The position numbers and the translations under genes are program-made. Shown here one piece after another: positions 14,116 through 63,670 of a stretch of DNA of 64,000 nucleotides. The stretch's first letter is position 1, and each line of letters begins with the position of its first letter. Under the pieces are notes generated by a model, which worked only from the letters and a program-made list of their open reading frames with translations, did no database searches and was not told the origin of the DNA. The stretch lies in IMG/VR virus record IMGVR_UViG_3300047557_002430, positions 23,089 to 87,088 of that record, one strand, 5' to 3'. Source of the DNA: a virus.

Positions 14116-15231
14116 GTGTTTGTCGATAACGATTTCCCGAAGCTGCTTGGTGCTGAGTTATATCGACCGCACCCTGCGTATGTAGTCGAAATGGCTGCAG
14201 AACCAGTGGTGGTCCATGACTTCTCCAAACAGCCCGGCCAGACAGTTCAGTTAGATCGTTACCGCTTCTGGGGCAACCCTGGTTCTAAGGAATCGCGGGA
14301 ACGTACAGCCGAACAGACAATCGGCACCGCTAACAGCAGGAATATTGTTAAGGACAAGGTGCTCGTGACTCTTCGCGAGTACACCGGTCCCGCTGACCCG
14401 ACTGATCCTACTCAGCCCAGCACCTTCAAAATCGCTCGCGAGACTCTGATCACCGCGCAGCGCTTACTGCTGGATACTGGCAACCTGACTGCGTTCCACC
14501 AGTCTATCGGTTCGTTAACTCTGCTTGACGACTACCGGCGGTGGCGTGATCGGGTGTTCATCAACGAACTCCTGAAAGCCGTTTCTAAGGGTAAGGCTTC
14601 CGACAGCCAGGGTGGCTACTACTACCCCGGCGACCTTGCCGTCGGCGGTCTGACCTACTCTAACGCAGAGCAGGCCAAGTTCGACGTTAAGGACGACCTG
14701 CTGCGCGTGGTGAAGAGCCTCCGTAAGCGGAACGTCCCCACCTACCAGGACGGGTTCTATCGCTGCGTCTGCGATCCTACCTTCCTGATGCACCTGCGTC
14801 AGAACAGCGACTTCCGCGAGGTTGCACGCTATCCTGGCAACGGCCAAATCAACCCCCTCATGTCGGCGATGCAGCCCAACGCTGCGCTGTACATGGGTCA
14901 AGGCTTCGGCCAAGCCACCTTCGTGGCTGGCGAGCCCATCATGCCGACTGGCTTTGTGTTTGAAGGTGTGCGGTTCTTCGAATCCACCAACATGCCTTCG
15001 CAGACTGCCACGGCGACTATCGGTGGCACCGCAGGTACATACGATACCGCCATCGGTATGTTCTTCGGTCCCCAAAGCGTTGGTGTCGGTATCGGCGGCA
15101 ACAACGCCCAGGTGCTGCTGAACAACAACGACGACTTCAGCCGTTTCATCATGATGATTTGGAGCCTGTACGCAGGTTTCGAACTTCTGAACGCTGACTT
15201 CGCCACCATCGCTTACTCCTTTAGCGTTTGA
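14116..15231 (+). CDS. Major capsid protein
   Basis: 371 residues, GTG start. The features fit the N4-gp56-like branch of HK97-fold capsid proteins. These include a PGQTVQLDRYRFWG segment near residue 46, a helical spine with RETLITAQRLLLDTGN, the YQDGFYRCVCDPTFLMHLRQNSDF motif near 205-228, and the VFEGVRFFESTNMP segment near 280-294. Codon use is markedly C-ending and GC-richer than neighbours, as expected for a very highly expressed gene. A strong Shine-Dalgarno links it to the next gene. Confidence 0.85.
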   Translation: MFVDNDFPKLLGAELYRPHPAYVVEMAAEPVVVHDFSKQPGQTVQLDRYRFWGNPGSKESRERTAEQTIGTANSRNIVKDKVLVTLREYTGPADPTDPTQPSTFKIARETLITAQRLLLDTGNLTAFHQSIGSLTLLDDYRRWRDRVFINELLKAVSKGKASDSQGGYYYPGDLAVGGLTYSNAEQAKFDVKDDLLRVVKSLRKRNVPTYQDGFYRCVCDPTFLMHLRQNSDFREVARYPGNGQINPLMSAMQPNAALYMGQGFGQATFVAGEPIMPTGFVFEGVRFFESTNMPSQTATATIGGTAGTYDTAIGMFFGPQSVGVGIGGNNAQVLLNNNDDFSRFIMMIWSLYAGFELLNADFATIAYSFSV

Positions 15232-45655: not shown

Positions 45656-46243
45656 CTATAAGAGATTATTCCAGGGGTCGTTAGGTTCTTTAGGAATATT
45701 TAAGGTTCCTACAGGAGGCTGAGGCACTGGCTGCGGTGGTTGACCTGCAGCCATCTGTAAACGCGCTAGTTCTGCTTTTAGGATCGCGTTCTGCTGCAGA
45801 ATCGGATCCGTTTGGCTTTTAGCCCACGCTTGGGCGTTGCTTGTCAGCTTGTCTAAAACGTTGGCAGGGTGCGGGAAATTGAAAACGTGACCTTGTTCGG
45901 TATTGATGTCCGCCGCTTTCTGGTCTTCGGCCAGGGCTTCCAGGAAACGCAAAGCCTGTTCCAGAGGAATATCCGATTCGATGCTGAGCTGCTGCGGACT
46001 AACTACGCCTCTATTTGCTTCATACAATTTTTTAAATGCTGCCGCTACACGAAAGGATTCGCGCATGTTCTCCTCTCGTTTTCGGGCAAGTTCACTCATT
46101 AAGGAGACGCCTGTTAGAGCACCTCCCATTGATGCCAGGGTGGGAGCAAACGCTGATGGTGCTGCAATCCCAGTTACAACCCCTGCAGTTAATCCGATTC
46201 CGAGGATACCGGCATACATGTTTCTAATTGTTTTGATCGTCAT
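45656..46243 (-). CDS. Membrane-anchored hypothetical protein
   Basis: 195 residues. Two adjoining hydrophobic stretches (ILGIGLTAGVVTGIAAPSAF and ASMGGALTGVSLM) span residues 13-50. A small winged-helix-like part (VVSPQQLSIESDIPLEQALRFLEAL) follows, then a Pro/Gln tail ending NDPWNNLL. It overlaps the primase-helicase end by 20 bases. Could tether replication to the membrane; this is a guess. Confidence 0.5.
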   Translation of the reverse strand: MTIKTIRNMYAGILGIGLTAGVVTGIAAPSAFAPTLASMGGALTGVSLMSELARKREENMRESFRVAAAFKKLYEANRGVVSPQQLSIESDIPLEQALRFLEALAEDQKAADINTEQGHVFNFPHPANVLDKLTSNAQAWAKSQTDPILQQNAILKAELARLQMAAGQPPQPVPQPPVGTLNIPKEPNDPWNNLL

Positions 46244-48992
46244 TAGTTTTTGGTGTGTCGTGCGTAGCGAAAGCTGGTTCCCAAATAGTCGGGTTCGACG
46301 CGTATTCTATAGGTGAAGGTAAACGCGTGTCTCCGCTTGCAGCTCGATCCGTGGAAACGTCATAGGGCTTGAGTCGCAGACCTTTAACGACAGCCTTACC
46401 GTTAATGAACTTAGGTTCGATGCCTTGGATCTTGAGAACGTTGTTCACAGTTTCTTTAAGGCGATCGACGAAGCGAGGCTTCGCTGCAGCTTTATAGCCA
46501 TTTGATTTGGCAAAGTTTGCGTAGGACGCATAGATTTCATGGTATGCGTTCTTAACGTATAGACCCCTTTCTTGTTCGTCAATGCTGGGACGGAAAGCAC
46601 CACCACCCAACACCGTGGAGCTATTGGGAGCGTAGAGGCAGCATTCTGCAAGCCAAGCACAAATAGGGTTATTGAAAATAAGAGCTTCTAAGTTTGTGAC
46701 GTTAAGATGCGGGCAGTATTTAACGGGATTAGCGAGTACATCACGCATCTCCTCATACTTCATGCTGAGGCACCAGGCTGCAATCCCTGGCAGTTCTTTT
46801 GCGAACTCCCCTTCGATCCGATCGCTATATACGCTGATCAGGTCGCGCCTCTGTGATGCTGGGATCACGTTGTTCATGATGATCGTCAGGCGACGACGCT
46901 CCAGACCACTACTAATGTCGGAAGAGCTGATGTGTTCGTTACTAGCAATAGAAACAAGAAGCTCAGGCTTGAAGTTGATTACCTGAGTTCCGTACTTACG
47001 CTCAGCCCTAAGTGTGTCGGATGCTGAAGTCAGCTTCTTCAGTGTGTCGAGTCGCTTGCTGAACGATGCCTCGTCCGTCAGGAGCAACAGGCGCTTGCCG
47101 ATCAGACTGTGCGCCTCGAACCGGTTGGTTTCGATCGTTTCTAGATCGCTTGTATGGGTTCCGCTGTAGCCAGCGAGCGCAATCAGTACCTGCTGCAGCG
47201 TGGATTTACCGGAGCCACCAGCACCAATGAGGTGCAGGAATCGCTCACCTGTTGTGTATCCCGTCAGAACTGCTCGGCAGAAGGCTTGAATCAGGATTAC
47301 TTTGTCGGGTTCAACAGCCCAACTAAGCCACTTAAGAAACTCTGGGCATGAAGCGTTTAGATCAAAGTCGTAAGCAAGTTTCGTTTGGAAGTAAAGGTCT
47401 TTTTGGTTTCCTTGTGTGAACTCCTGAGTCTTCGTGTTCAGCACACCGTTGTTAAAGGCAACCAGCCCTCGATTCGCTTGCCAAATAGAGTTACGACCAC
47501 CGTTTACAGACTTAAGCAGTTTGGCTTTAAGAATGTGAAATACGGAGCTTACGGTTGCAGAGTTGTATCTGTTTAGAACACCAGCATTAATAAAAGTGTC
47601 GAGCGTTTTTACGATGCGCTTTTTGATGTGTTGCTCATCGTTGATGTACCAAATGCCTTCGTCTTCGTCGTATGTAAAGAACTCGTCTAAACCGGAATCG
47701 AACAGAAAGCGATCCCCGTAGTTATTTACAATTACGTCCGCAATATCGTTCTCGGAGAACTGTCTATTGTTTGATTGAATCTGAACCAATTGAGCGGGAG
47801 TGCTCGGCGTGGGAGAAGGAGCCATTTGAGGTGTTGATCTTGAAGTTGGATTTGGATTTGATGGAGCTGTTGGATCTTCGATGACCAGCACCGAATTGAT
47901 CGGCTGAGGTTTGTTCTGTTTGAGCGAGTCGAGAACAGACTGAGGGCAGTATGTCTCGAAGATCACCTTATTTACAGACTTTATCTTTTTCCAGACAGCA
48001 GCCTCGCCGTTTTCGGACGCGATTGCGATGGCCGGTTGCAGCTCTGCTGGATCACTGATGCTGTTCAGGATGCGATCGAATTTGCCATCAAGCTCTGGGG
48101 CGTAGTCGTAGATATTCTCGAACACATGGTTCGCTGTGTCAAGGGGGTTCCTTTGTACTGGTATGCCTCGCTCGTTAAGCCAGTTGCACCAACCAATGAT
48201 TTCCTTGAATGCCGCCGCCATAGCTGACGAACGATCGGCTACCTCCTCTCCTTCCAAGATGGCCCGTACCGAGCCGCTAACCACCCGGTCCAGTCGAACC
48301 CCCGTGGGATCGACAGTAGCTGTCAGGGCCTCTGCTGGAGCGCTTTCACCATCTGCCTGTTTTGGTATCGATAAATAAGTTTTGTACGCTTCATCAACTT
48401 TCTCTGCCGGGATGAAGTTTTCGCTTATGTAAATTGTTTGCTTTTGCTCTGTAGATCCGTAAGCTCCGTAAAACAAGTTTGGAACTTGTGTTGCCCGAAT
48501 ATCACTGCCGGGAATTTGTGCCGATATCTGACGAGTAAACCACTGGTAAAAGCCAGTATCGAGTATGGGCTTTTCTAAGCCGAAAACTAATCTAAACCTT
48601 GGCCAATCTTTAGTGTGACTAGGAGAGTAGTAACTAAAGCTCAGGTACTTTTTACAGATATCTAGTTCTAGTGCTTGGTGTTCGTCTAGTTCTTGTTTTT
48701 GGATTTTATTTCCGTCCTCATCTTTTCCGTCTGCTTGATTATCTATGTCGATTATTATTAAGCCTGCTTTTATACAACCTGTTTCGTTTTTAGTACGCTT
48801 ACCTTCAATTAGGTGCCACGCACAGAGCCCATAACTTTCGCTTACGTTATGCGCTATTTCTTCAATGGTGCCTTCAAGAGCTTCCCAGTTCTCATTGAAG
48901 GCTTTGAAGTTCCCGCCGACACCTATTTTTCCCGTTCGGGGATTTAGATGTTTGGAGACCTCTTGATTCCGGCTGAAGAAAAAACGCATCAC
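46224..48992 (-). CDS. Primase-helicase, D5/P4 family
   Basis: 922 residues. The N-terminal 200 residues look like an archaeo-eukaryotic primase: LIIIDIDN near 78-85 (metal Asp pair) and PRFRLVFGLEKP near 130. The C-terminal half has D5_N features and an SF3-like helicase: Walker A GAGGSGKSTL near 588-597 and Walker B RLLLLTDEASF near 628. A Pro/Ser/Thr linker at about 365-400 separates the two. It should prime and unwind at the replication fork with the family A polymerase. Confidence 0.82.
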   Translation of the reverse strand: MMRFFFSRNQEVSKHLNPRTGKIGVGGNFKAFNENWEALEGTIEEIAHNVSESYGLCAWHLIEGKRTKNETGCIKAGLIIIDIDNQADGKDEDGNKIQKQELDEHQALELDICKKYLSFSYYSPSHTKDWPRFRLVFGLEKPILDTGFYQWFTRQISAQIPGSDIRATQVPNLFYGAYGSTEQKQTIYISENFIPAEKVDEAYKTYLSIPKQADGESAPAEALTATVDPTGVRLDRVVSGSVRAILEGEEVADRSSAMAAAFKEIIGWCNWLNERGIPVQRNPLDTANHVFENIYDYAPELDGKFDRILNSISDPAELQPAIAIASENGEAAVWKKIKSVNKVIFETYCPQSVLDSLKQNKPQPINSVLVIEDPTAPSNPNPTSRSTPQMAPSPTPSTPAQLVQIQSNNRQFSENDIADVIVNNYGDRFLFDSGLDEFFTYDEDEGIWYINDEQHIKKRIVKTLDTFINAGVLNRYNSATVSSVFHILKAKLLKSVNGGRNSIWQANRGLVAFNNGVLNTKTQEFTQGNQKDLYFQTKLAYDFDLNASCPEFLKWLSWAVEPDKVILIQAFCRAVLTGYTTGERFLHLIGAGGSGKSTLQQVLIALAGYSGTHTSDLETIETNRFEAHSLIGKRLLLLTDEASFSKRLDTLKKLTSASDTLRAERKYGTQVINFKPELLVSIASNEHISSSDISSGLERRRLTIIMNNVIPASQRRDLISVYSDRIEGEFAKELPGIAAWCLSMKYEEMRDVLANPVKYCPHLNVTNLEALIFNNPICAWLAECCLYAPNSSTVLGGGAFRPSIDEQERGLYVKNAYHEIYASYANFAKSNGYKAAAKPRFVDRLKETVNNVLKIQGIEPKFINGKAVVKGLRLKPYDVSTDRAASGDTRLPSPIEYASNPTIWEPAFATHDTPKTNDDQNN

Positions 48993-49049: not shown

Positions 49050-49829
49050 TTAAGGCGCGGTTTGAAGATTGTAGAACTTTTTAAGGACTTCCATCCACTG
49101 TTCTTCATGTTTTTCGATGTCATTTTTACCAAAAGTGAAAACTTGAACTGAAAATTCCGGAATAGCTGTTGAGACGATGATTTGTGTTTTATCGATCGAA
49201 ATGCCTAAGCATTTTTCCGCCGCTAACTTATACGCGGCTAATTGAAGTTGTGTTTTCTTTAGTTTGAATACTCCTGAGATTAAGGCTCTCCTCAGCTTGT
49301 CATCGATGTTTGAACCAGCTCGTGGGAACTTGTAACTATAAGGTCCAACCGACGTTTTAAAGTCACCTAAAACTGTTTCTCCGTTTCCGTCTATGTAAAT
49401 AATGTCGCAGCATCCTGCGTATCCATAACCTGTTATTTCGTCGTAATAATGAATACGTCCTACACCATCGTCCCCTACATATTTAGACCACTGAGGTTGG
49501 TTATAAGGTTTTTCTGACCATAATACTTTTCCGTTGCCTAGAAGCTCTTCTAGCTTCTCAGGCATACCATCCCAGTAAGGTTTGTACTCCTTCGGAGGTT
49601 CTACTTGTAATCCACGGATCCAGTTCTCTGTAGCAGAGTGGATCCACGTCCCACGCTCTGCCGCTTTCTCGGCAACGCCAGGATTCAGGATGTTCCAATG
49701 CGCCAGTTTTTTCTGTGTTTCCTCTGTCTGTGTAGCCGAGAGGACACTCGTTACCGAAGGCAGTGGTTTAGAAACACCAGCGCATTGGTAATGACGTAAG
49801 CCGTTAAGGGTTAACCGTGTTTGGGACAC
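49050..49829 (-). CDS. PD-(D/E)xK nuclease, RecB/Cas4-like
   Basis: 259 residues. Motifs of the PDDEXK_1 family: AERGTWIHSATENWI near 58-72, GCCDIIYIDGNGETVLGDFKTS near 137-158 (Asp and DxK), and QLQLAAYKLAAEK near 192-204. Probably a 5'-3' exonuclease or end-processing enzyme in recombination-dependent replication. No Cys cluster for an iron-sulfur centre is visible, unlike Cas4 itself. Confidence 0.75.
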   Translation of the reverse strand: MSQTRLTLNGLRHYQCAGVSKPLPSVTSVLSATQTEETQKKLAHWNILNPGVAEKAAERGTWIHSATENWIRGLQVEPPKEYKPYWDGMPEKLEELLGNGKVLWSEKPYNQPQWSKYVGDDGVGRIHYYDEITGYGYAGCCDIIYIDGNGETVLGDFKTSVGPYSYKFPRAGSNIDDKLRRALISGVFKLKKTQLQLAAYKLAAEKCLGISIDKTQIIVSTAIPEFSVQVFTFGKNDIEKHEEQWMEVLKKFYNLQTAP

Positions 49830-53521: not shown

Positions 53522-54496
53522 TCAGCGCCGGGCGCTTGCGTACTCAGGGCTGGATTGGAAACCGGAGATTAGCTGACTCCATTCAGATGAAGTTAAGCCT
53601 TTATCGGCGAACACAGGGTTTGCGGTCCAGCTAGAAACCTCGGAAGAGGAAGGAGTACGTCCCAGTTGAGTTTGGTACAGGTACTTAACAGCTTCCTCAG
53701 GGGTCTGAGGATTCGGGTTTTCTGGGGTAAAGCTACGTGTAGGAGCTGGAGCCGGTGCAGGAGCGGGAGTAGAAGCAGGAGCCGGTGCAGGCGTGGGAGT
53801 CGCGGCACTGACCGGCTCTTGAGTACGAGCAGGTAAGCCGCCTTTCGGCACGGTGTATGTGCTGCCCGGTGTGTTTCTCTTAAGTCCTAAATATTCTGTG
53901 CTTGTTTCAAACCCTCGGTTCAGTTGCTCCCATTCCCCTGCGGTTAAGCCTTTATCCTCAAACACGGGGTTAGTTAACCAGCTTTGAATTTCAGATTCTG
54001 CTGGAGTTCGGCCGAGTTTACTTTCGTAAAGCGCTGTAATTGCTTCCCTAGGTGATTGCGGGTTGGGATTCAGAGCTTTAAACACACGCTCCTGCCCTTG
54101 GAACAGATCTCTGGTGTCTTCGACGGGTTTAGTTGTTTGATCCTCTTTCTTCGGACTCGTCGTTTCGGTTGTGCTTTGACTCTTCTTCCATTCGTCTAAG
54201 AATTTTTGCATCGACTGATTAAGTAAGTCACCAACATTGGTTTGCTGCGTCGGCTGTGCCGTTGGTTGTGTTGTCGGCTGCGTCGTTGGCTGTGGTTTAG
54301 GTGCAGGAGCTGTAAATGCCTGCATTGCAGGGCTACCGCTACCGCGACCTAAACGTCCGCCACGCCCTCCTTTACCACCAAGTTTGCTGTATAACTGAAG
54401 TTCAGGGAAATACTGAGCTAGCGCTGACTTGCTTTCCTCTTTGTCTTCTACGGGAAAACCAAACCCGAAAACATCCCCAGCTAACCGGTCGTCCAT
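53522..54496 (-). CDS. Protein with two DUF4214-like repeats
   Basis: 324 residues. Two homologous units of about 60 residues, near 155-215 and 260-322: each has LY(E/Q)..LGRTP, then SW..NPVF.DKGLT, then GF..S.EY. DUF4214 is often found in secreted or virion-linked repeat proteins. A Gln/Pro/Thr linker (PTTQPTTQPTAQPTQQTN) and an Ala/Pro linker lie between. Located in the replication arm, an unexpected place for a virion protein. Confidence 0.65.
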   Translation of the reverse strand: MDDRLAGDVFGFGFPVEDKEESKSALAQYFPELQLYSKLGGKGGRGGRLGRGSGSPAMQAFTAPAPKPQPTTQPTTQPTAQPTQQTNVGDLLNQSMQKFLDEWKKSQSTTETTSPKKEDQTTKPVEDTRDLFQGQERVFKALNPNPQSPREAITALYESKLGRTPAESEIQSWLTNPVFEDKGLTAGEWEQLNRGFETSTEYLGLKRNTPGSTYTVPKGGLPARTQEPVSAATPTPAPAPASTPAPAPAPAPTRSFTPENPNPQTPEEAVKYLYQTQLGRTPSSSEVSSWTANPVFADKGLTSSEWSQLISGFQSSPEYASARR

Positions 54497-55138: not shown

Positions 55139-57034
55139 TTATTTAGCTGCCCACGAGTCGCCGACACTTGCATCGGCTGAGGCAGGCACCGTGGATAACA
55201 CAGTTTCTGCAGCATTAATCATAGTTGTTTCTAGTATTGTTTTATATTCTTCTGCTTGCTCTTGTTTAACTTCGAGCACCAGTTCGTCGTGTACACATGC
55301 AACGAGCCTTACGTCCTCATTTAAGTGCTGATTTAGGTTCGAAATCGCAATCTTCAAAATGTCAGCTCCTGAGCCTTGGATGAGTGTGTTTGCGCTACAC
55401 ATCATGGTTGCATCGTCGTAGCTGAGAAGTCTCCTTCTACCACAGGCTGTTCTGGTGTATGCCCAACCGTCTGCAACCAGGGCTGCCCTCTCTTGGTGCC
55501 ACTGTTTAAGCCTCGGATACGCAGCGTGGAAGGCGGTGTGTGCTACTTTTGCTTCCGATAGGGTGATGATCTTACCGCTTTGTGCGGCATAAGTTTTATA
55601 TTTTCTGTAGCCCATTCCATACAACAACGCAAAATTAAGTGTCTTTCCGTCCTGTCGCTCGTCCTTTGTAACGGCGTCGATCGGTTTTTTGTAGATGAGG
55701 CTTGCCGTTAGTGTGTGCAGGTCTATATCTTCTGTAAAAGCTTTTTTCATTTGAGGGATGTTGATTAACTCTGCGCCCAAACGAAGCTCAATCTGAGCCC
55801 AGTCGCAGATGACGAGTTTGTAGCCAGGGCTCGCCACGAAAACCTCTCGGAATTCTTTCGAGCGTGGAACCTGCTGAATGTTGATTCCGTAAACAGTTTT
55901 TTGTTTTGTCTTAGCTGTTTTTGGTGCTCCGCTGCTGGTAAACCTTCCTGAGTTAGCCCCGCATTGGTTATAACCCGAGTGTATTCTGTGTGATACAGGG
56001 TTTATGTTATCGATTAGTTTAGTTACGTGTTCTAGTTGAGTTTCGATTTTTGCTCTTTCTCTGTAGAGCATTAGTGTCGGGTCGTCGCTATCGAACTCCG
56101 CAAGAGCAACTTGATTTAGCGTCGGCTTTTTCGTTTGTTGATCGATAGGGATATCGATGCCGCTGGCTTCGAATGCCGCAATCAGTTGCGCCGTGGAGCT
56201 GGGGTTGAACTCCTTTAAGCGTTTTTTACCGATAGCAATGGTTCCGTCTGGGTTTCTTGGAAGCTTCCTATCAACAAATTGGATGCGAGAATCTAGATCT
56301 TTTACGAACTCTTCTGTCTTACGGTTCAGTGTTTCTTCGATTTTTACTTTTAGCTTTTTGAGTTTTTCTACGTCGATTGCAAACCCTGTTCGGCACATCA
56401 AAGCCACAGGGCGGATGCACTTGCTCTCGATTGAGTAAAGCCCCAGTAGGTTCTCTTCTTTTAATTCTTCGAACTGTTGTTTTGCAATCAGCGGAAGTAT
56501 CTTTACGTCCTTTGCGGCGTAAACAAGTTGGCTCTCTGTTAGGTCTTCTGAAGACCAGTCGCTTGTTTGTTCCTCTTTAGAAATCTCGATCTCCAATCTC
56601 CTTTCGGCGACTGCCTTGAGACCACAGGAGACGTCGGCAAAGTAGGGCTTTCTTGTTTTAGGCGCGATCTTTTTCTCTTTAAAGCCTGCTCTTAGGATTC
56701 GCTCTGCGATGTATGTGCAGAAAACGTTTCCTTTAAAATCGCAACCTATTGAGTACAGGAACTGTAAGTCGAAGTTAGCGTTGTGGCATACCATAGTCTT
56801 TCGTGTGACTATGTAGTCCACTAAGGGAGCTACGTTTATTCTCCACGCGTCGAATATATAAACAGGATCCTCCAAATCGTCCGTCGAAGCTGAGCAAATC
56901 TGAATAAGGCGAAGCTTAGCGATCCACGAGTCGAGCCCCGTGGTCTCGGTATCAAGCACAATCTTTTCGTAGCGCTCGATCTTGTTTAAAGCTTGCGCAC
57001 ACTTTTCGTTGGAATCGACAAGAACGAAGTTCAT
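55139..57034 (-). CDS. polA: DNA polymerase I, family A, with 3'-5' exonuclease
   Basis: 631 residues. Exonuclease motifs: LDTETTGLDSW (Asp28, Glu30), VCHNANFDLQFL near 87-98, LVYAAKDVKIL near 170. Polymerase: motif A DWAQIELRLG near 408, motif B KTLNFALLYGMGY near 460-472, motif C VACVHDELVLEV near 577-588. No 5'-nuclease domain. The position equal to E. coli Phe762 is Phe. This is the replicative polymerase of the phage. Confidence 0.93.
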   Translation of the reverse strand: MNFVLVDSNEKCAQALNKIERYEKIVLDTETTGLDSWIAKLRLIQICSASTDDLEDPVYIFDAWRINVAPLVDYIVTRKTMVCHNANFDLQFLYSIGCDFKGNVFCTYIAERILRAGFKEKKIAPKTRKPYFADVSCGLKAVAERRLEIEISKEEQTSDWSSEDLTESQLVYAAKDVKILPLIAKQQFEELKEENLLGLYSIESKCIRPVALMCRTGFAIDVEKLKKLKVKIEETLNRKTEEFVKDLDSRIQFVDRKLPRNPDGTIAIGKKRLKEFNPSSTAQLIAAFEASGIDIPIDQQTKKPTLNQVALAEFDSDDPTLMLYRERAKIETQLEHVTKLIDNINPVSHRIHSGYNQCGANSGRFTSSGAPKTAKTKQKTVYGINIQQVPRSKEFREVFVASPGYKLVICDWAQIELRLGAELINIPQMKKAFTEDIDLHTLTASLIYKKPIDAVTKDERQDGKTLNFALLYGMGYRKYKTYAAQSGKIITLSEAKVAHTAFHAAYPRLKQWHQERAALVADGWAYTRTACGRRRLLSYDDATMMCSANTLIQGSGADILKIAISNLNQHLNEDVRLVACVHDELVLEVKQEQAEEYKTILETTMINAAETVLSTVPASADASVGDSWAAK

Positions 57035-57109: not shown

Positions 57110-57904
57110 TCAGGAAACCTTCGCGGGGATTTGTGCTGCGAAGTTGCGGACGATGTACCGATCCAGATCCGCCCACATCTCCGCGAGCTGCTTCCCTCGC
57201 TCGGTGGCGCGAATCTTGTAGTAGACGCGCCGAGTAGCTTGCACAGACGGCGTGGGCTGGTCGACGTAGGGAGCTCCCACTGACAGGACGCGAACTTGCT
57301 CTAGCAGCTCGTTCCGAGTGCAGTACACAAGACCTTCACGTAAAGCTATATACATGGGGGATACGTGAAACGTTTTCTTGCGTTCGATCTTTCCGTTGTA
57401 ATCAATAGGGCTCAGCTTCCCATCGACATACTCAAAACCTCTAAAGAACTTAGAAGTAATCAACATGCGATCTTCGGCAAAGATAGTGTTTGCGAAATGA
57501 ATTGCCGTTTCCCTCAAGGTGAACCATTCTTTTCCTGCTGACATCTTCAGCAGCATCGCGACACCTGTTGAAGTGTACGAACTTGTTTTATTAAGGTAAT
57601 CAATGATGCTGTCGAGATCCTGTAGTTTCTTCGCAGGAGTTACAAGCGTAAGTTTTGGAGTTTCTTTTACCGGTTGAGGTTCAGTCTTTTTAGAGACTGA
57701 GATTTTCCAAGCCAGTGAAGCGAGGTTTTGGTCCCCCGTGGCAACAGCAGTTTGGAACAAGACATTTGCATCAAGTTCATTGATGTCAATGATTCGCTCC
57801 AGTTCGATTACTGAGTTAGAGCCTTTTCCTTTTGTGCTTTCGAGGAGGGCAAGAGCCTCCTCGGAATTGAGAGCAGTGCCTGCCAGGGAGAATTGGATGT
57901 TCAT
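57110..57904 (-). CDS. Hypothetical protein
   Basis: 264 residues. N-terminal helical and acidic part (ALLESTKGKGSNSVIELERIIDINELDANVLFQTAVATGDQNLAS), later helix-rich with Arg/Lys. No recognised domain. Ends just before a terminator, so it closes the transcription unit that begins further right. Confidence 0.6.
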   Translation of the reverse strand: MNIQFSLAGTALNSEEALALLESTKGKGSNSVIELERIIDINELDANVLFQTAVATGDQNLASLAWKISVSKKTEPQPVKETPKLTLVTPAKKLQDLDSIIDYLNKTSSYTSTGVAMLLKMSAGKEWFTLRETAIHFANTIFAEDRMLITSKFFRGFEYVDGKLSPIDYNGKIERKKTFHVSPMYIALREGLVYCTRNELLEQVRVLSVGAPYVDQPTPSVQATRRVYYKIRATERGKQLAEMWADLDRYIVRNFAAQIPAKVS

Positions 57905-57981: not shown

Positions 57982-58428
57982 TTAAGTTTTCTGCGTGACT
58001 TTAGAGATGCTTTTAAAAACTACATCTACGTTTAAGCACCAAGTATCTACGTCTCTACTTATTGCTGCGCTTAGCTCAGCAAAGTCAGCCTCTTCTAAAG
58101 ATATTGTTTCTTGTATAGACGTCATTTCGTCTGTGCCATAGAGCGTTTTTAAGTAAGGCTTTACGCTTATACCGATGTCATAAATAACACCTTGGTCTAT
58201 ATATTCTGATGTTCTTTCTGTTTTCGTTATTGAGAATAGGAGTTGCCTACTTAAGAATTCGATATGACAATCTTTAAAACGGTGAGTGTACTTACTCTCG
58301 TCACCTTTTTGTAAGTAAAGGTTTTGTATGCAGCGCTTTATCCATGTACTTAATACGTCTACTGAATCATTGTATCCACAGTACGCAGACTCGATTAATT
58401 TAATTTTTGTAGCTGCGTCGTTTTTCAT
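57982..58428 (-). CDS. Hypothetical protein downstream of VWA gene
   Basis: 148 residues, helical with four Cys. MKNDAATKIKLIESAYCGYND at the start. Not recognised. It follows the VWA gene by 37 bases on the same strand and may be the last gene of the ATPase-VWA operon. Confidence 0.55.
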   Translation of the reverse strand: MKNDAATKIKLIESAYCGYNDSVDVLSTWIKRCIQNLYLQKGDESKYTHRFKDCHIEFLSRQLLFSITKTERTSEYIDQGVIYDIGISVKPYLKTLYGTDEMTSIQETISLEEADFAELSAAISRDVDTWCLNVDVVFKSISKVTQKT

Positions 58429-58465
58429 TGAATCAAGATCAGTAGGCGTGTCTAAGGGGCACTAC

Positions 58466-60016
58466 CTACCGGATGCAACGTTGAATAGCATCAATTGTAG
58501 CATCAGGGCTGTAGAGGTTTACAGAGTAAACTTCATCACTAAACTGTTTACAGACACTGGGTACTTCTGTATTGATACAGATTGTGTTCCATTGTGTTCC
58601 CGTTGTTTGTTTGAAGTGGTTTAGACGTCGAATAAAATTTTCGTGAACGTCGCTGTGCCCATCTGTAATCATCAGCACATCGGTGTGAGCATCCAGTTTG
58701 GCGCAATCCAGAGCGTGGGCGACCACAGCGTTAAAGCTGGTTCCTCCTCCTAGTGTCCAAGTTCCTACAAAGTTAAGTAACTCTGCGTTGTTCTTTCGGT
58801 CTCCCAGTAGTTCCACGGAGCCGTTGATACGGGTATCAAACAAGTGAATCTGTACTGCCCTGTTCTCTTTAAGAGCTTCCTCAGCAATTACAAAAGCAAT
58901 TGCTTTGCTCCATAATTCTGATTCTCCGTTCATCGAACCAGACACATCGATGTACATAACAATCGGACCCTTACCTACATCTTTTCTGTGCGCTGTGTAG
59001 TCTTTTGTGAGCAGTGTTTTTTGAGCATACTTCAGAGCGAACAAAGCTCTACCCTCTGGGCTGCCTGCGAGAGCAATTTCCGCAGGGAATGCCTTAGTGA
59101 TGTTGTCGCCGAACTGTGCTCCAGTGATCGATTCGTATTGATCTCGGATCTTTCGAGCCCTCTTTCTTTCGTTCCAAATCCGTCGGAGAGCACCCAGTTT
59201 CTTGATGAGCTTTTTAAGTTCTGGGTTTCTAGAAATTTTTTTAGCTAGCTCCCGCTTCTCCTGGAGGTTTGCTATATGCGAACCTTTCCCTTCCTGGTCT
59301 CCGTGCAGCGTGGACAAACCTTCTTGCGTCTCGTCGTTTGCTTTTACAGCCTTGTCGATAATTTTATGTGACTGGCTCTGAATTTTTTCCTTAGCTTCTT
59401 GAATAGCATCTGCGATTGCTTGGTTAAGTGCCTTTCCTTCTCGCCGAGCTTTATCCGCTGCTTCGCTGTCACCAGATTCAACAGCTTTCTTAAAACGTTC
59501 TCTGAGTTCCTGTAGCTTTTGTCCTGCTGCTGTTAATAGCTGAACGTTGAACTGGTTTTCTTCTATGGCTTCTTCGATTACTTTCGACAGCTCGTTCAGG
59601 ATGTTTACGGCATTGTTGCCTGCATTGAATTGATTCCCAACGCTTCGACGCAGTAGCTCAGGCCACGCCGCTGCTTGAGATAGATCTGACATTATGGAAT
59701 ACCAGATCCCGTTCTCTGGTTTATAACCCTCGGGGATTGCCGTTTTATCCCCGTCACACATCTTTCGAAAGTAATCCTCGAAGGCTTGTTCTGTAACTAA
59801 CCACTGAACATTGTCCGCGTTATACAGACGTTCGAACAGTTCCTTCCCGAAACGAGAAAGTTGTTTGATCTTGTAGTGGTCGATCAAGTATGTGACGCAG
59901 GGTCTTGCATCACGGATGAAGTCATTCCATAAGAAGTCAGCGAGCGCAGAACACGCAATGGTCAAAGGCTCATTCTCAACGAGCCGAATAATCTCGGTGT
60001 GTGTCGTGGTGTTCAT
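58466..60016 (-). CDS. VWA-domain protein, ViaA/CoxE-like
   Basis: 516 residues. A long helical N-terminal part (coiled coil around 145-290) leads to a von Willebrand A domain at about 345-515. The MIDAS motif is DVSGSMNG near 356-363, with LGGGTSFNAVV near 430 and MITDGHSD near 455. This two-part design is that of ViaA, which partners the MoxR ATPase RavA. Here the ATPase lies just upstream, with one small gene between. Metal-dependent binding of a client is expected. Confidence 0.75.
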   Translation of the reverse strand: MNTTTHTEIIRLVENEPLTIACSALADFLWNDFIRDARPCVTYLIDHYKIKQLSRFGKELFERLYNADNVQWLVTEQAFEDYFRKMCDGDKTAIPEGYKPENGIWYSIMSDLSQAAAWPELLRRSVGNQFNAGNNAVNILNELSKVIEEAIEENQFNVQLLTAAGQKLQELRERFKKAVESGDSEAADKARREGKALNQAIADAIQEAKEKIQSQSHKIIDKAVKANDETQEGLSTLHGDQEGKGSHIANLQEKRELAKKISRNPELKKLIKKLGALRRIWNERKRARKIRDQYESITGAQFGDNITKAFPAEIALAGSPEGRALFALKYAQKTLLTKDYTAHRKDVGKGPIVMYIDVSGSMNGESELWSKAIAFVIAEEALKENRAVQIHLFDTRINGSVELLGDRKNNAELLNFVGTWTLGGGTSFNAVVAHALDCAKLDAHTDVLMITDGHSDVHENFIRRLNHFKQTTGTQWNTICINTEVPSVCKQFSDEVYSVNLYSPDATIDAIQRCIR

Positions 60017-60258
60017 GGGTGGATCGGATACATCCGAAGAAGTTGAACCTTTCGTTCTTCAACGAGATGAGCTGACGATACTGTAGAAGACACGCCGTTA
60101 CTCAGATGAACTTGGTAACAGTCGTGTCCTCTATCGTCCTGCTTATAAATAACGGCTACGCCGTCGGAATCAAAGCTCAGAGAATCATTTACTAAGTTCG
60201 CTGATTGCTCGGGCGAGGGTGTCACAGTGTGTTTGCAGGCTCTGCTGGAGTTTGACAC
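60013..60258 (-). CDS. Small protein between ATPase and VWA genes
   Basis: Up to 81 residues from a GTG, or 70 from a later GTG. Its first part overlaps the ATPase gene by 74 bases. Residues 35-81 form a small beta unit (GVAVIYKQDDRGHDCYQVHLSNG) like a short SH3-style domain. ATGA overlap with the VWA gene indicates coupled translation. Confidence 0.5.
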   Translation of the reverse strand: MSNSSRACKHTVTPSPEQSANLVNDSLSFDSDGVAVIYKQDDRGHDCYQVHLSNGVSSTVSSAHLVEERKVQLLRMYPIHP

Positions 60259-61372
60259 CAGTTGAGCGAGTTGTCACCGACATCCTGAAACGAGTGCCGT
60301 CAAGGATTTCTCCAACCTTATCCCTAACTGTTTGCATGTCCTTGTGATACTTACGGAGGTTGATAACAAAATCGTTCAGCTCTCCGATGCCTTTAGCCTT
60401 ATACCGATGAGCGTGAGCGTTGTACTCAGACATAATGCCTGCTGCAGCTCTCTTCGCATCATTAAACACGCGATCCGCCGTGGGTATTTCCTGCTCAAGG
60501 ACTTCGATGATCACTTCCTGATCTTCGCGTGTTTGGTAAACAATGTGCACCAAGCTATTGTGCATGTGATCAGGGAACAGTTCGTCGTCGCCCTGTACTA
60601 CAGCCCAAGCTTTTAAGAACTTGAGAATTTGAATACGTCGCCGGTCGCTGATTGTGATGTTTCGGCTGGCCAGCATCTCCCACACACTGTTAAATCGATC
60701 CAAGAACTCTTCAGATACTTTTAGGTTGTTTGCAGCAACCTGAAGCTCGGTAAGTTCTTCCAGGGAAAGGTGCTCGCCTACCGTGGGTCGCTCTACCAAA
60801 CCCAAGCCCCACTCATCTAGTTTCCGTTTTGAAACTGGTTTCTTCAGCAGATCTACAGTCGGACGAAACAGAAAGCGGTCAGCAAATGCCTGGAGCGACT
60901 CTTCATCAGGCCAGCTATTTGTAGCGGCTACGATGGATTGAATAGGAGTTTGAATAAGTTCTTTTCCGTTATTAAAGGTGCGTTCGTTTAGCAGAGTCAG
61001 TAGCGAATTTAAGATTGCGGAACTGCCTCGGAACAGCTCATCCAAGAAACCAATGTGTGCGTTAGGCAGATACCCGTCTGTGTCTCTTGTGTACTCGTCA
61101 TTAAGCAGTTTGGTTACTGCTACAGGCCCGAACACTTCGGATGGGTCTGTCGTCGGGGTCAGCAGATAACCGAAGTAATTTGCTTTGCTGATTCCGTTGC
61201 AGATGTTGCGCACCAGATCAGATTTACCTGTTCCGGGTACACCAAGCAGGAATGCGTTCTGCTTGCTTAGGAGTGTGGCGAGGAGTCCGTCGATTACGTG
61301 CTCCCTTTCCAAAGTGGCGTTATTAAGTGCGCCACGGAAGTTTTGAAGCTTGGCGAAGAGTTGGTCGTTCAT
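60185..61372 (-). CDS. RavA-like MoxR AAA+ ATPase
   Basis: 395 residues. Walker A GVPGTGKS at 44-51, TTDPSEVFGP near 74-83, Walker B GFLDELF near 108-114, and AILNSLLTLLNERTFNNG near 118-135. The run from residue 22 to 170 follows the order and spacing of E. coli RavA. MoxR ATPases work with VWA partners to remodel or activate target proteins. In Escherichia coli RavA-ViaA affects respiratory complexes and drug sensitivity. The phage target is unknown. ATGA overlap with the upstream gene. Confidence 0.82.
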   Translation of the reverse strand: MNDQLFAKLQNFRGALNNATLEREHVIDGLLATLLSKQNAFLLGVPGTGKSDLVRNICNGISKANYFGYLLTPTTDPSEVFGPVAVTKLLNDEYTRDTDGYLPNAHIGFLDELFRGSSAILNSLLTLLNERTFNNGKELIQTPIQSIVAATNSWPDEESLQAFADRFLFRPTVDLLKKPVSKRKLDEWGLGLVERPTVGEHLSLEELTELQVAANNLKVSEEFLDRFNSVWEMLASRNITISDRRRIQILKFLKAWAVVQGDDELFPDHMHNSLVHIVYQTREDQEVIIEVLEQEIPTADRVFNDAKRAAAGIMSEYNAHAHRYKAKGIGELNDFVINLRKYHKDMQTVRDKVGEILDGTRFRMSVTTRSTGVKLQQSLQTHCDTLARAISELSK

Positions 61373-62061
61373 TTTGAGTAAGCCTGCAGGATGGTTGAAA
61401 GATCTTGGTCTGAGGTTGTTGCTGTAGTGGGCGTAGGTGTCAAGCTATTGCAAAACTCTTTCCATTTCGCTTTAACTTCTTTTTCGTACTGCTCCTTATG
61501 GCAGTTAAATAACATTCCTTTAGCTGCGTCTGCTACATCTCCTAGTTCTGTTTTTAGTTGTGCATATCTTTCTTCGTCATCTACTTTCGTGTAGTTTCTT
61601 TTTATGTAATCAAGTTCGTCTAAAAAAACCAGTCTCCTTTTACTTCCTTCTTTAGATTCAGTTTTAAAAACCGAACCGTCGGACCCCGTGGCCAAATAAA
61701 GGTGATTGAGACTAGGCAGCGGCCGATCGTAATTAACTACCTGATACACGGAAGGGACTTCTATGTATTCTGGTTCTGTAGTCTTTACATACAAGCAGAA
61801 GTTTAGTTTTTCCTCGGTTATGTGCTGCTCTACACTTTTTCTAATGCGTTCACAAAGCTCCTTTACATCTGTATGTTTCAGTTGAGGTACGGGTATCTTT
61901 TGGTCATCTATAATTACCATTTCGGGCTCTATTAAAAAGTGGCCCGGACTGGAACCAGCTTTCTTGTAGTAAACCTGTATCTCTATAACTGTGTGCGATC
62001 CGTTTGCTTTCTTAATAGGGATGTCCACCAAATGAAACTTTGAAACCGTTTCCCTAGGCAT
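61369..62061 (-). CDS. Hypothetical protein in the ATPase operon
   Basis: 230 residues, mixed alpha/beta, Lys/Glu-rich C-terminus and a Thr-rich tail TPTPTTATTSDQD. Not recognised. Coupled by ATGA to the RavA-like gene and by an 8-base overlap to the gene before it, so it is very likely part of the same system. Confidence 0.6.
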   Translation of the reverse strand: MPRETVSKFHLVDIPIKKANGSHTVIEIQVYYKKAGSSPGHFLIEPEMVIIDDQKIPVPQLKHTDVKELCERIRKSVEQHITEEKLNFCLYVKTTEPEYIEVPSVYQVVNYDRPLPSLNHLYLATGSDGSVFKTESKEGSKRRLVFLDELDYIKRNYTKVDDEERYAQLKTELGDVADAAKGMLFNCHKEQYEKEVKAKWKEFCNSLTPTPTTATTSDQDLSTILQAYSK

Positions 62062-62278
62062 TGCTTCCCTCCTTTAAAAGAGAGTTCGGCCGTGGGAATG
62101 GAAGATACCCAAGCCCAATCCAGCATTCATTTTTAAGCAGTTTGTTAATCTCCATTAGTTTTCGGTGAGCTGTTTCAAAGTCAGTAAAGGTTACAGCCTG
62201 CACAATGTCATTTGTGTAGCTTTCTATATCTTTTAAGTACCCTACAGTGCATTCTATGGTGTGCACGAGACGATCCAT
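62054..62278 (-). CDS. Small helical protein in the ATPase operon
   Basis: 74 residues (MDRLVHTIECTVGYLKDIES), nearly all helical with charged residues. Overlaps neighbours on both sides. Function unknown; probably co-expressed with the RavA-like ATPase. Confidence 0.55.
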   Translation of the reverse strand: MDRLVHTIECTVGYLKDIESYTNDIVQAVTFTDFETAHRKLMEINKLLKNECWIGLGYLPFPRPNSLLKEGSNA

Positions 62279-63492
62279 CAGAAGTCTGCCTCCTCAGTCG
62301 TGTTAGTTTCGTTGTTCTCGTTTACGTCAGTGATCTCCGCCAGGAGATCGTCAAGGTTGTCTCCAGCTGCGCCGATAAGCTCTTTGCGCTGATTGATTAG
62401 TTTCTTAAGTTGCTTAGACCGCTGTGCATAAACATCTAGCTCAAGGTTTGCATCCTTGATTAAAAGGTTTAGTGAGTTTGAGTTCTCGGCGTTTTTAATC
62501 CGGTCACACAATGTTTTGTATGTGGAGGAAAGAGCCAGAGATTGCTTGAGCGTGTCTAGTCCTTTAGATTGATCCCTAGAGTTAACTAGATTCTCAAGCT
62601 CATTCCTGATTTCATCTTGCACAGCAAAGAATTCTGTAGTCGCATTGTCCCTTACAGTTCGATCGGGCGACTGGATGTCACAACCTGATTTGTACAGTCG
62701 GTTAGAAAGATCTGCCAGGTTTTCGAAGCCAGGAACACTGTCGCTAATCAGCTTGAGTTTCTGAGCAGTTATCTGCCAGCTTCCGCGTTTCTTGTTGCCG
62801 CCTGTTTGCTGCCTCCCAATCTTCGACACGTGGCGAACATCAAGATCATCCAGAAGCTCAGCACTGATTTGCAGTGCTCTGTCTGCAGCGTTTGCTCTTG
62901 CGGCTTCTAAAACTTGCTGAGTGTTAATTTGATTCTCATACATCAGCAGCGAATTGAGATCACCGTCAATGGGTTTCTCCACACGCTCCATGGAAACAGG
63001 AAGTGGACCCAGAACAGAGACTCGGATGGGTGTTTTGTACTCATCTTTCGTCGGGAAGAATTTCATATAGGCATCAAAAGCCAACTTGAATTCATCTGAA
63101 TCGTTAAAGAGCGGTCGCAAAATACCTTCTGCTGTAGCTTGCCACGCCTCAAACTCCTGCTCCCACAGGTCTTTGAGTTTGTCGTTCGCATCCTGAGCAG
63201 CTTTCCGAATCTTCTTAATTAAGTCATTAGCCAAATGAAAGTAGGAAGAAGTGACAAAGTGAGAGTCACCACTATGAATGCAATAGCTGTCATAAAGTTC
63301 GCGCTGCATAACGCGAAGCGAATCAAGTTCTGCTTTAAGCGCATTCGAAAGGTTGGGACGCAGGCTTACCGTATTGTTGCGCTCAAGCGTATCAACGACA
63401 GATTGAGGAAGCTTCAGATCATTAAATTTGATCTGCACAGATTGTCGAACATCCGCAGAGATCGAGCAGGAAAGCAGATAGTGAGAAGTCAT
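62278..63492 (-). CDS. DUF3150-like helical protein
   Basis: 404 residues, helical throughout. Layout (SADVRQSVQIKFNDLKLP, LRVMQRELYDSYCIHSG, FEAWQATAEGILRPLFND, then VSVLGPLP) resembles DUF3150 proteins, which I recall from phages and mobile elements near MoxR-type ATPases. C-terminal tail is Asn/Glu/Thr-rich. First gene of the leftward ATPase-VWA operon, after a terminator. Confidence 0.5.
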   Translation of the reverse strand: MTSHYLLSCSISADVRQSVQIKFNDLKLPQSVVDTLERNNTVSLRPNLSNALKAELDSLRVMQRELYDSYCIHSGDSHFVTSSYFHLANDLIKKIRKAAQDANDKLKDLWEQEFEAWQATAEGILRPLFNDSDEFKLAFDAYMKFFPTKDEYKTPIRVSVLGPLPVSMERVEKPIDGDLNSLLMYENQINTQQVLEAARANAADRALQISAELLDDLDVRHVSKIGRQQTGGNKKRGSWQITAQKLKLISDSVPGFENLADLSNRLYKSGCDIQSPDRTVRDNATTEFFAVQDEIRNELENLVNSRDQSKGLDTLKQSLALSSTYKTLCDRIKNAENSNSLNLLIKDANLELDVYAQRSKQLKKLINQRKELIGAAGDNLDDLLAEITDVNENNETNTTEEADF

Positions 63493-63524: not shown

Positions 63525-63560
63525 AAAAGAAGGAAACCCCTTCCTTTAAGGGGAAGGGGT
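63525..63560 (-). terminator. Rho-independent terminator
   Basis: Read leftward: ACCCCTTCC pairs with GGAAGGGGT (9 bp) with a short loop, then TTCCTTCTTTT. It ends the unit that includes the right-edge gene and the tRNA-like element. Confidence 0.8.
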
Positions 63561-63593
63561 CGCGCTTCCAACTTGGGCTCCTCGCAGCCCACG

Positions 63594-63638
63594 AAAACGA
63601 TACAGGACTCGAACCCGTGGCACAAGCCCGGACCGTTT
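63594..63638 (-). ncRNA. tRNA-like minihelix
   Basis: Read leftward: AAACGGT pairs with ATCGTTT (7 bp, one G-T) as an acceptor stem, and ACGGG-TTCGAGT-CCTGT forms a canonical T arm, followed by U at position 73. Between them lie only 13 bases with a tiny GGC/GCC hairpin, so D and anticodon arms are missing. No full tRNA could be drawn by extending either side. It may be a tRNA remnant, an attP-like 3' end, or a structured RNA. Confidence 0.3.
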
Positions 63639-63670
63639 AAGATATCTAATACGTTGTATGTCTTTAGAGT

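Follow-up and report, generated by a model that had tools for sequence, protein, structure and literature searches.

A 64,000-nucleotide stretch of viral DNA, hereafter the window, covers positions 23089-87088 of the 87,088-bp IMG/VR record IMGVR_UViG_3300047557_002430 and carries seven co-directional open reading frames (ORFs) on its minus strand, running from 63492 down to 57982, exactly where a first-pass annotation had placed them. Three of their products, g1 (62278-63492, 404 aa), the MoxR ATPase g4 (60185-61372, 395 aa) and the VWA protein g6 (58466-60016, 516 aa), appear to form the core of a module which is best read as a RavA/ViaA-flavoured variant of an apparently undescribed ternary AAA+/VWA/DUF3150 remodeller. 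That this phage three-protein AAA+ remodeller most likely acts on a replication or recombination nucleoprotein complex is a proposal to which we give about even chances. The motor pair is of a type already known; the third subunit and its parallel on plasmids appear to be undescribed.

The identification of g4 as a RavA-type MoxR ATPase is borne out by profile matches to Pfam bpMoxR (2.1e-55) and NCBIfam RavA (3.5e-40) and by an hhalign comparison with E. coli RavA (3.9e-38, 30 % identity over 286 aligned columns). Its Walker A (GVPGTGKS), Walker B (DE) and sensor-2 (SDRR) motifs are intact. The prediction of a helical-plus-VWA protein held up equally well. The helical N-terminal region of g6 is followed by a C-terminal VWA domain and a conserved C-terminus, and the protein matches VWA_CoxE (4.2e-8) and NCBIfam ViaA (8.1e-15); hhalign against ViaA gives 1.1e-16 over residues 229-502, with nothing aligned N-terminal of residue 229. 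The metal ion-dependent adhesion site (MIDAS) is intact (DVSGSM, GGGTS, TDG), and both proteins keep the catalytic and metal-site motifs needed for the docking and MIDAS chemistry of their relatives. Against the NCBIfam RavA and ViaA models, g4 and g6 score 138.5 and 55 bits, below the equivalog cut-offs of 681 and 500 bits, respectively.

Many tailed viruses and cyanophages are reported to carry CobST clusters (PMC8651126), and the pair might on this precedent be a metal-chelatase-like accessory helping the host CobN to make cobalamin. We hold this to be very improbable: neither g4 nor g6 matches the CobS (TIGR01650) or CobT (TIGR01651) models at E 0.1, whereas the AAA and VWA proteins linked to DUF3150 do. 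The comparison of profiles that the first-pass annotation had called for places the pair with RavA/ViaA. Since the ATPase and the VWA protein are nearer to RavA/ViaA than to the other models tested, one could also imagine that they modulate a respiratory or photosynthetic complex of the host, as in the E. coli RavA-ViaA system. This is improbable as well, because the LARA domain (PF20265) and the RavA C-terminal domain (PF12592), both of which show up in an E. coli RavA control, are absent from g4, no close cyanobacterial MoxR homologue was found, and the E. coli ravA-viaA locus has no g1-like third gene adjacent to it. Moreover, no operon protein contains a segment of transmembrane strength (the top 19-residue Kyte-Doolittle mean is 1.12), which leaves the earlier idea of remodelling in the thylakoid or of a respiratory complex unsupported.

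Viral relatives were collected by scanning IMG/VR with g4 as well as an alignment of g1, down to ~40 % identity, and the 61 contigs with a non-identical full-length g1 served as the conservation set. The order g1 > MoxR > VWA > g8, the last being the downstream neighbour described below, is found in 56 of them, and the other five have no parsed g6 or g8 ORF. Not one of the 61 contigs has g1, MoxR and VWA out of order, so that the conserved gene order claimed for the window extends without exception to these other viruses. The MoxR Walker A and sensor-2 motifs are kept in 61/61 contigs and the MIDAS in 57/57 VWA proteins. Mean column identity is 74 % for g1 and 64 % for the VWA protein, the two alignments differing in depth; judged from these sequences, the conservation of g1 equals or exceeds that of the VWA protein. 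The frequency of nonsynonymous differences (pN) is 0.09-0.18 in g1, g4 and g6 (the comparison of g1 with the relative L010 ranks second highest), while that of synonymous differences (pS) is saturated, and g1 and g4 are under strong purifying and not diversifying selection. Because the order is unbroken in 61 contigs and pN lies far below pS in all three genes, the module is not a chance arrangement.

The 404-residue g1 product is predicted to fold (mean predicted local distance difference test score, pLDDT, of 78) into a mixed beta/helical N-terminal part and a helical C-terminal part, followed by a disordered tail that ends in Asp-Phe-COOH. These last two residues are the same in 61/61 sequences, while the 15-25 residues before them are variable and have low prediction confidence, as is usual for disordered tails. 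When the model was compared with predicted viral structures, eight matches stood apart (E 1e-5 to 8e-4, probability 1.0), one of which is the BFVD entry A0A6J7WV52 (E 1.3e-5, probability 1.0, TM-scores 0.42/0.54), annotated as DUF3150 (PF11348). The predicted fold thus supports g1 as a DUF3150-fold protein. Against the PDB, the model gave generic helical-bundle matches only (Z below 8), and by sequence no g1 relatives were detected in isolate phages. A scan of viral contigs with a DUF3150 alignment yielded no confirmed relatives, its patterns being probably too specific, and a DUF3150 sequence search of the window record and of phages S-EIV1, CL131, MTATph1, Atu_ph07, phiCbK, CcrColossus and phiM12 gave no match. 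Ninth in rank among the fold matches to g1 (E 0.05, probability 0.89) is a protein of Mycobacterium phage Dylan. Dylan gp94 has the same length as this match and adjoins the AAA ATPase gp95 (L131 27933-30525, gp94-gp95); gp95 is not obviously MoxR-like, and gp94 is a weak lead.

To see which neighbours they have, true members of PF11348 were traced in genomes of Pseudomonadota. Among 15 such loci, two of which (L267 and L268) agree in the lengths and ends of their proteins and should probably be counted once, DUF3150 clusters with both an AAA+ and a VWA gene in 13 and with one of them in the other two; the partners tested match the CobS and CobT models. Plasmid records with DUF3150 number 1,168; of these, 978 are predicted to be conjugative and many are from Enterobacterales. 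The order on an IncC plasmid is AAA - hypothetical - ssb - bet - exonuclease - DUF3150 - VWA, and on a Citrobacter plasmid ssb - recT - exonuclease - MoxR - DUF3150 - VWA. A Vibrio plasmid has a YqaJ recombinase followed by AAA - DUF3150, and a Pseudomonas plasmid a 3'-5' exonuclease upstream of the triad. The neighbours of the plasmid triads include ssb, bet/recT, lambda-type exonuclease and YqaJ genes. Phe or Trp is the final residue in 17 of 18 DUF3150 proteins (14 chromosomal, with the L267/L268 pair merged, and 4 from plasmids), compared to 8 of 42 neighbouring annotated proteins; as the sequences are related, no formal probability is claimed. In the literature searched, which leaves out most subscription journals, DUF3150 is not mentioned.

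In the window, the module is co-directional with the genes just downstream of it on the minus strand. These encode g8 (57110-57904), for which a winged-helix, PadR/MarR-like DNA-binding fold is predicted and which follows the module in nearly all relatives whose contigs extend that far, a family A DNA polymerase (PolA, 55139-57034), an exonuclease of PHROG 298 (49050-49829) and a primase-type replication protein (46224-48992). A possible equivalence of g8 with the gene upstream of PolA in Synechococcus phage S-EIV1 was rejected, since the two are unrelated and the S-EIV1 gene encodes a GP88 protein. Also inside the replication cluster lies a proline-rich protein with a DUF4214 match (53522-54496). 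Together with the plasmid neighbours of the DUF3150 triads, g8, PolA, the exonuclease and the primase are the reason why DNA replication or recombination is put forward as the target. A service to phage replication had been one of two roles suggested at the outset, and it is favoured by this position and by the ssb-bet-exo neighbourhoods of the plasmids.

The reading that competes here is that of a virion assembly chaperone, with the MoxR/VWA pair folding or assembling head or tail proteins. It has precedents in published proposals for viral MoxR-vWA pairs, namely p618/p892 of Acidianus two-tailed virus (ATV) and those of group 2.2 jumbo phages (PMC7824862, PMC7911831), and AAA proteins of ATV-type viruses do turn up as relatives in the protein search. 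We nevertheless regard it as unlikely. The module belongs to the replication-side minus-strand cluster, far from the genes for terminase, portal and capsid, which lie on the plus strand; S-EIV1 has the same type of portal, large terminase (TerL) and major capsid protein, yet lacks the module; and the capsid proteins are 91-97 % identical among genomes whose g1 proteins share only 38-81 % identity.

The remodeller proposed for g1, g4 and g6 could work as follows. In relatives of the MoxR/VWA type, the VWA protein is docked to the AAA+ ring and rotates together with it (PMC13036017), and an acidic residue of the target serves as the sixth ligand of the MIDAS (PMC9976466). By analogy, g4 would form a MoxR/RavA-type ring that hydrolyses ATP, and g6 would dock on this ring via its VWA domain and present its MIDAS metal site. 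With its flexible Asp-Phe tail, whose acidic-aromatic tip is exposed, g1, the one other constant component, would be a dedicated third subunit, either an adaptor between motor and target or a protein that is itself pulled by the motor. SSB (single-stranded DNA-binding) proteins carry docking tails, of which the aromatic tip of DUF3150 proteins, acidic-aromatic in g1, is reminiscent; the tip of g1 might accordingly be either a MIDAS ligand or such a docking tail. The hexamer, the docking, the function of the tail and the target are what we infer; the likeliest target is a nucleoprotein complex of phage replication or recombination.

The virus itself is, as a best guess, a freshwater-type cyanophage related to S-EIV1, because its terminase, portal and capsid protein are 52, 46 and 69 % identical to those of this phage, the sole isolate with a related portal; the cyanophage origin assumed earlier gains support from the same kinship. 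A search of S-EIV1 found neither g1 and g4 nor a close relative of the window PolA. The S-EIV1 capsid homologue with this 69 % identity (KJ410740 60859-61986; L132 10860-11987) is not annotated as a single gene and is mostly covered by a hypothetical coding sequence on the opposite strand. The capsid gene of the window (14116-15231) is uninterrupted. In the relatives L218, L219, L220 and L221 the major capsid gene is split near codon 37 by an insert of ~1 kb that matches Rfam group I introns (RF00028), with a second intron near codon 80-90 in L221. The g1 gene is present in 12/12 long viral records tested, a biased sample since most of them were found via the module itself; MoxR occurs in five of six contigs of at least 50 kb found via the capsid protein, and the sixth may be a fragment.

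Identity to the window within the lineage is 91-97 % for the capsid protein, 83-92 % for the terminase, 58-80 % for PolA and 38-81 % for g1, and the module therefore diverges as the replication genes do and not as the capsid does. No recent host origin of MoxR is visible in the sequences, because the bacterial relatives found are distant (at most 39 % identity over most of the core, and one 43 % match over a short stretch only) and none is cyanobacterial except for one weak short match. Likewise, a search of genome contigs with g1 gave zero matches and hence no hint of a prophage or host.

Faster evolution than that of the capsid could also be expected of an anti-defence or superinfection-exclusion machine, akin to the MoxR-vWA ternary conflict systems (PMC7159879) to which the bpMoxR match of g4 alludes. 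Yet the bpMoxR model fits E. coli RavA just as well and its name is thus of no diagnostic value, and g6 terminates directly after the VWA domain without a C-terminal effector domain. The traits of such conflict systems, a C-terminal effector fusion and a beta-propeller or VMAP partner, were seen in no operon protein, and PADLOC gave no meaningful match. Given also the purifying regime of g1 and g4, we think that a role in conflict is improbable.

The remaining ORFs of the operon are by their distribution variable passengers and seem to be accessory. The small g2 (62054-62278, 74 aa, no family) lies between g1 and MoxR in many relatives but diverges fast, and is absent or undetectable in more distant contigs. 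The variable insert g3 (61369-62061, 230 aa) has weak relatives in few contigs only, and g5 (60013-60258, 81 aa, GTG start) is similarly rare. Patchy in its occurrence, g7 (57982-58428, 148 aa) is found in some relatives with 22-38 % identity; like g2 it diverges fast, and in many relatives it is absent or undetectable. The picture of a seven-gene machine thus gives way to a smaller core. None of g1, g2, g3, g5 and g7 has a convincing Pfam or PHROG family match. Successive genes from g1 to g6 overlap by 1, 8, 4, 74 (g4 and g5) and 4 nt, as had been described, but g7 is set apart from g6 by a gap of 37 nt. The operon is sited at one end of the contig, which cuts the gene upstream of g1. Between the two, a terminator-like hairpin (63535-63561, minus strand) is a consensus match only, its count being no higher than in shuffles, and promoter and terminator scans of the region did not rise above shuffled background. 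The intergenic DNA upstream of g1 also contains a stretch resembling a tRNA T-arm, GGGTTCGAGTCCTG (63590-63640, minus strand); ARAGORN finds no tRNA there, and it could be a tRNA remnant.

Explanations of viral MoxR/VWA pairs have so far been offered case by case, the pairs being taken for virion chaperones, cobalamin helpers or metabolic genes. A third protein that stays constant and is common by fold to phages and plasmid triads would provide a single testable frame, and the invariant Asp-Phe tip and the intact MIDAS lend themselves to simple point-mutation tests. Several points weigh against a replication remodeller built on a DUF3150-like subunit. In addition to the published case for virion chaperones, the TM-scores of the fold match are modest, and the DUF3150-like nature claimed for g1, while seen in the predicted fold, is invisible by sequence (hhalign probability 0.1 %, no Pfam match). 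Replication or recombination neighbours were read on four plasmids only, and, since genes in the early regions of phages typically lie close to those of replication, such a position does not establish a role. It is more tentatively, then, that we suggest a general class of AAA+/VWA/DUF3150 remodellers on mobile elements, both phages and conjugative plasmids, in which two different lines of pair, RavA/ViaA-like and CobS/CobT-like, would have come to share one third subunit, the aromatic-tipped DUF3150 directing the motor to replication or recombination complexes.

With the E. coli RavA-ViaA system the module shares the RavA-type MoxR core, the ViaA-type VWA domain with a preceding helical region, and the adjacent co-directional genes. 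It differs in lacking LARA and RavA_C, in the extra g1 and in being phage-borne, and the ViaA N-terminal region does not align with g6. An AAA+ gene beside a VWA gene is likewise found in ATV (p618/p892), group 2.2 jumbo phages, Hardycor1, Moorella phage MTATph1 and Aphanizomenon phage CL131. By hhalign, g1 resembles nothing among the genes upstream of MoxR in CL131 and MTATph1; those tested belong to other families, LPD29 and DUF6744, respectively. In CL131 (L003 758-5785) the LPD29-domain protein precedes the MoxR/VWA-like pair and a DNA polymerase III beta-clamp gene follows directly, while in MTATph1 (L002 7376-11567) the DUF6744 protein is encoded a few genes upstream of a RavA/ViaA-like pair and may be another third component.

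NorQD and CbbQO follow the same MoxR plus VWA motor logic, with MIDAS-mediated contact to the target, but their enzyme targets are known and they have no DUF3150-like subunit. In the DUF3150 triads of plasmids and chromosomes, the AAA and VWA proteins are CobS/CobT-like instead of RavA/ViaA-like, the gene order is another one, and the sequence of the phage g1 does not identify it as DUF3150. What the triads have in common with the phage module is the three-part make-up, the fold of g1, an aromatic C-terminal residue on the third protein and genes of DNA replication or recombination nearby.

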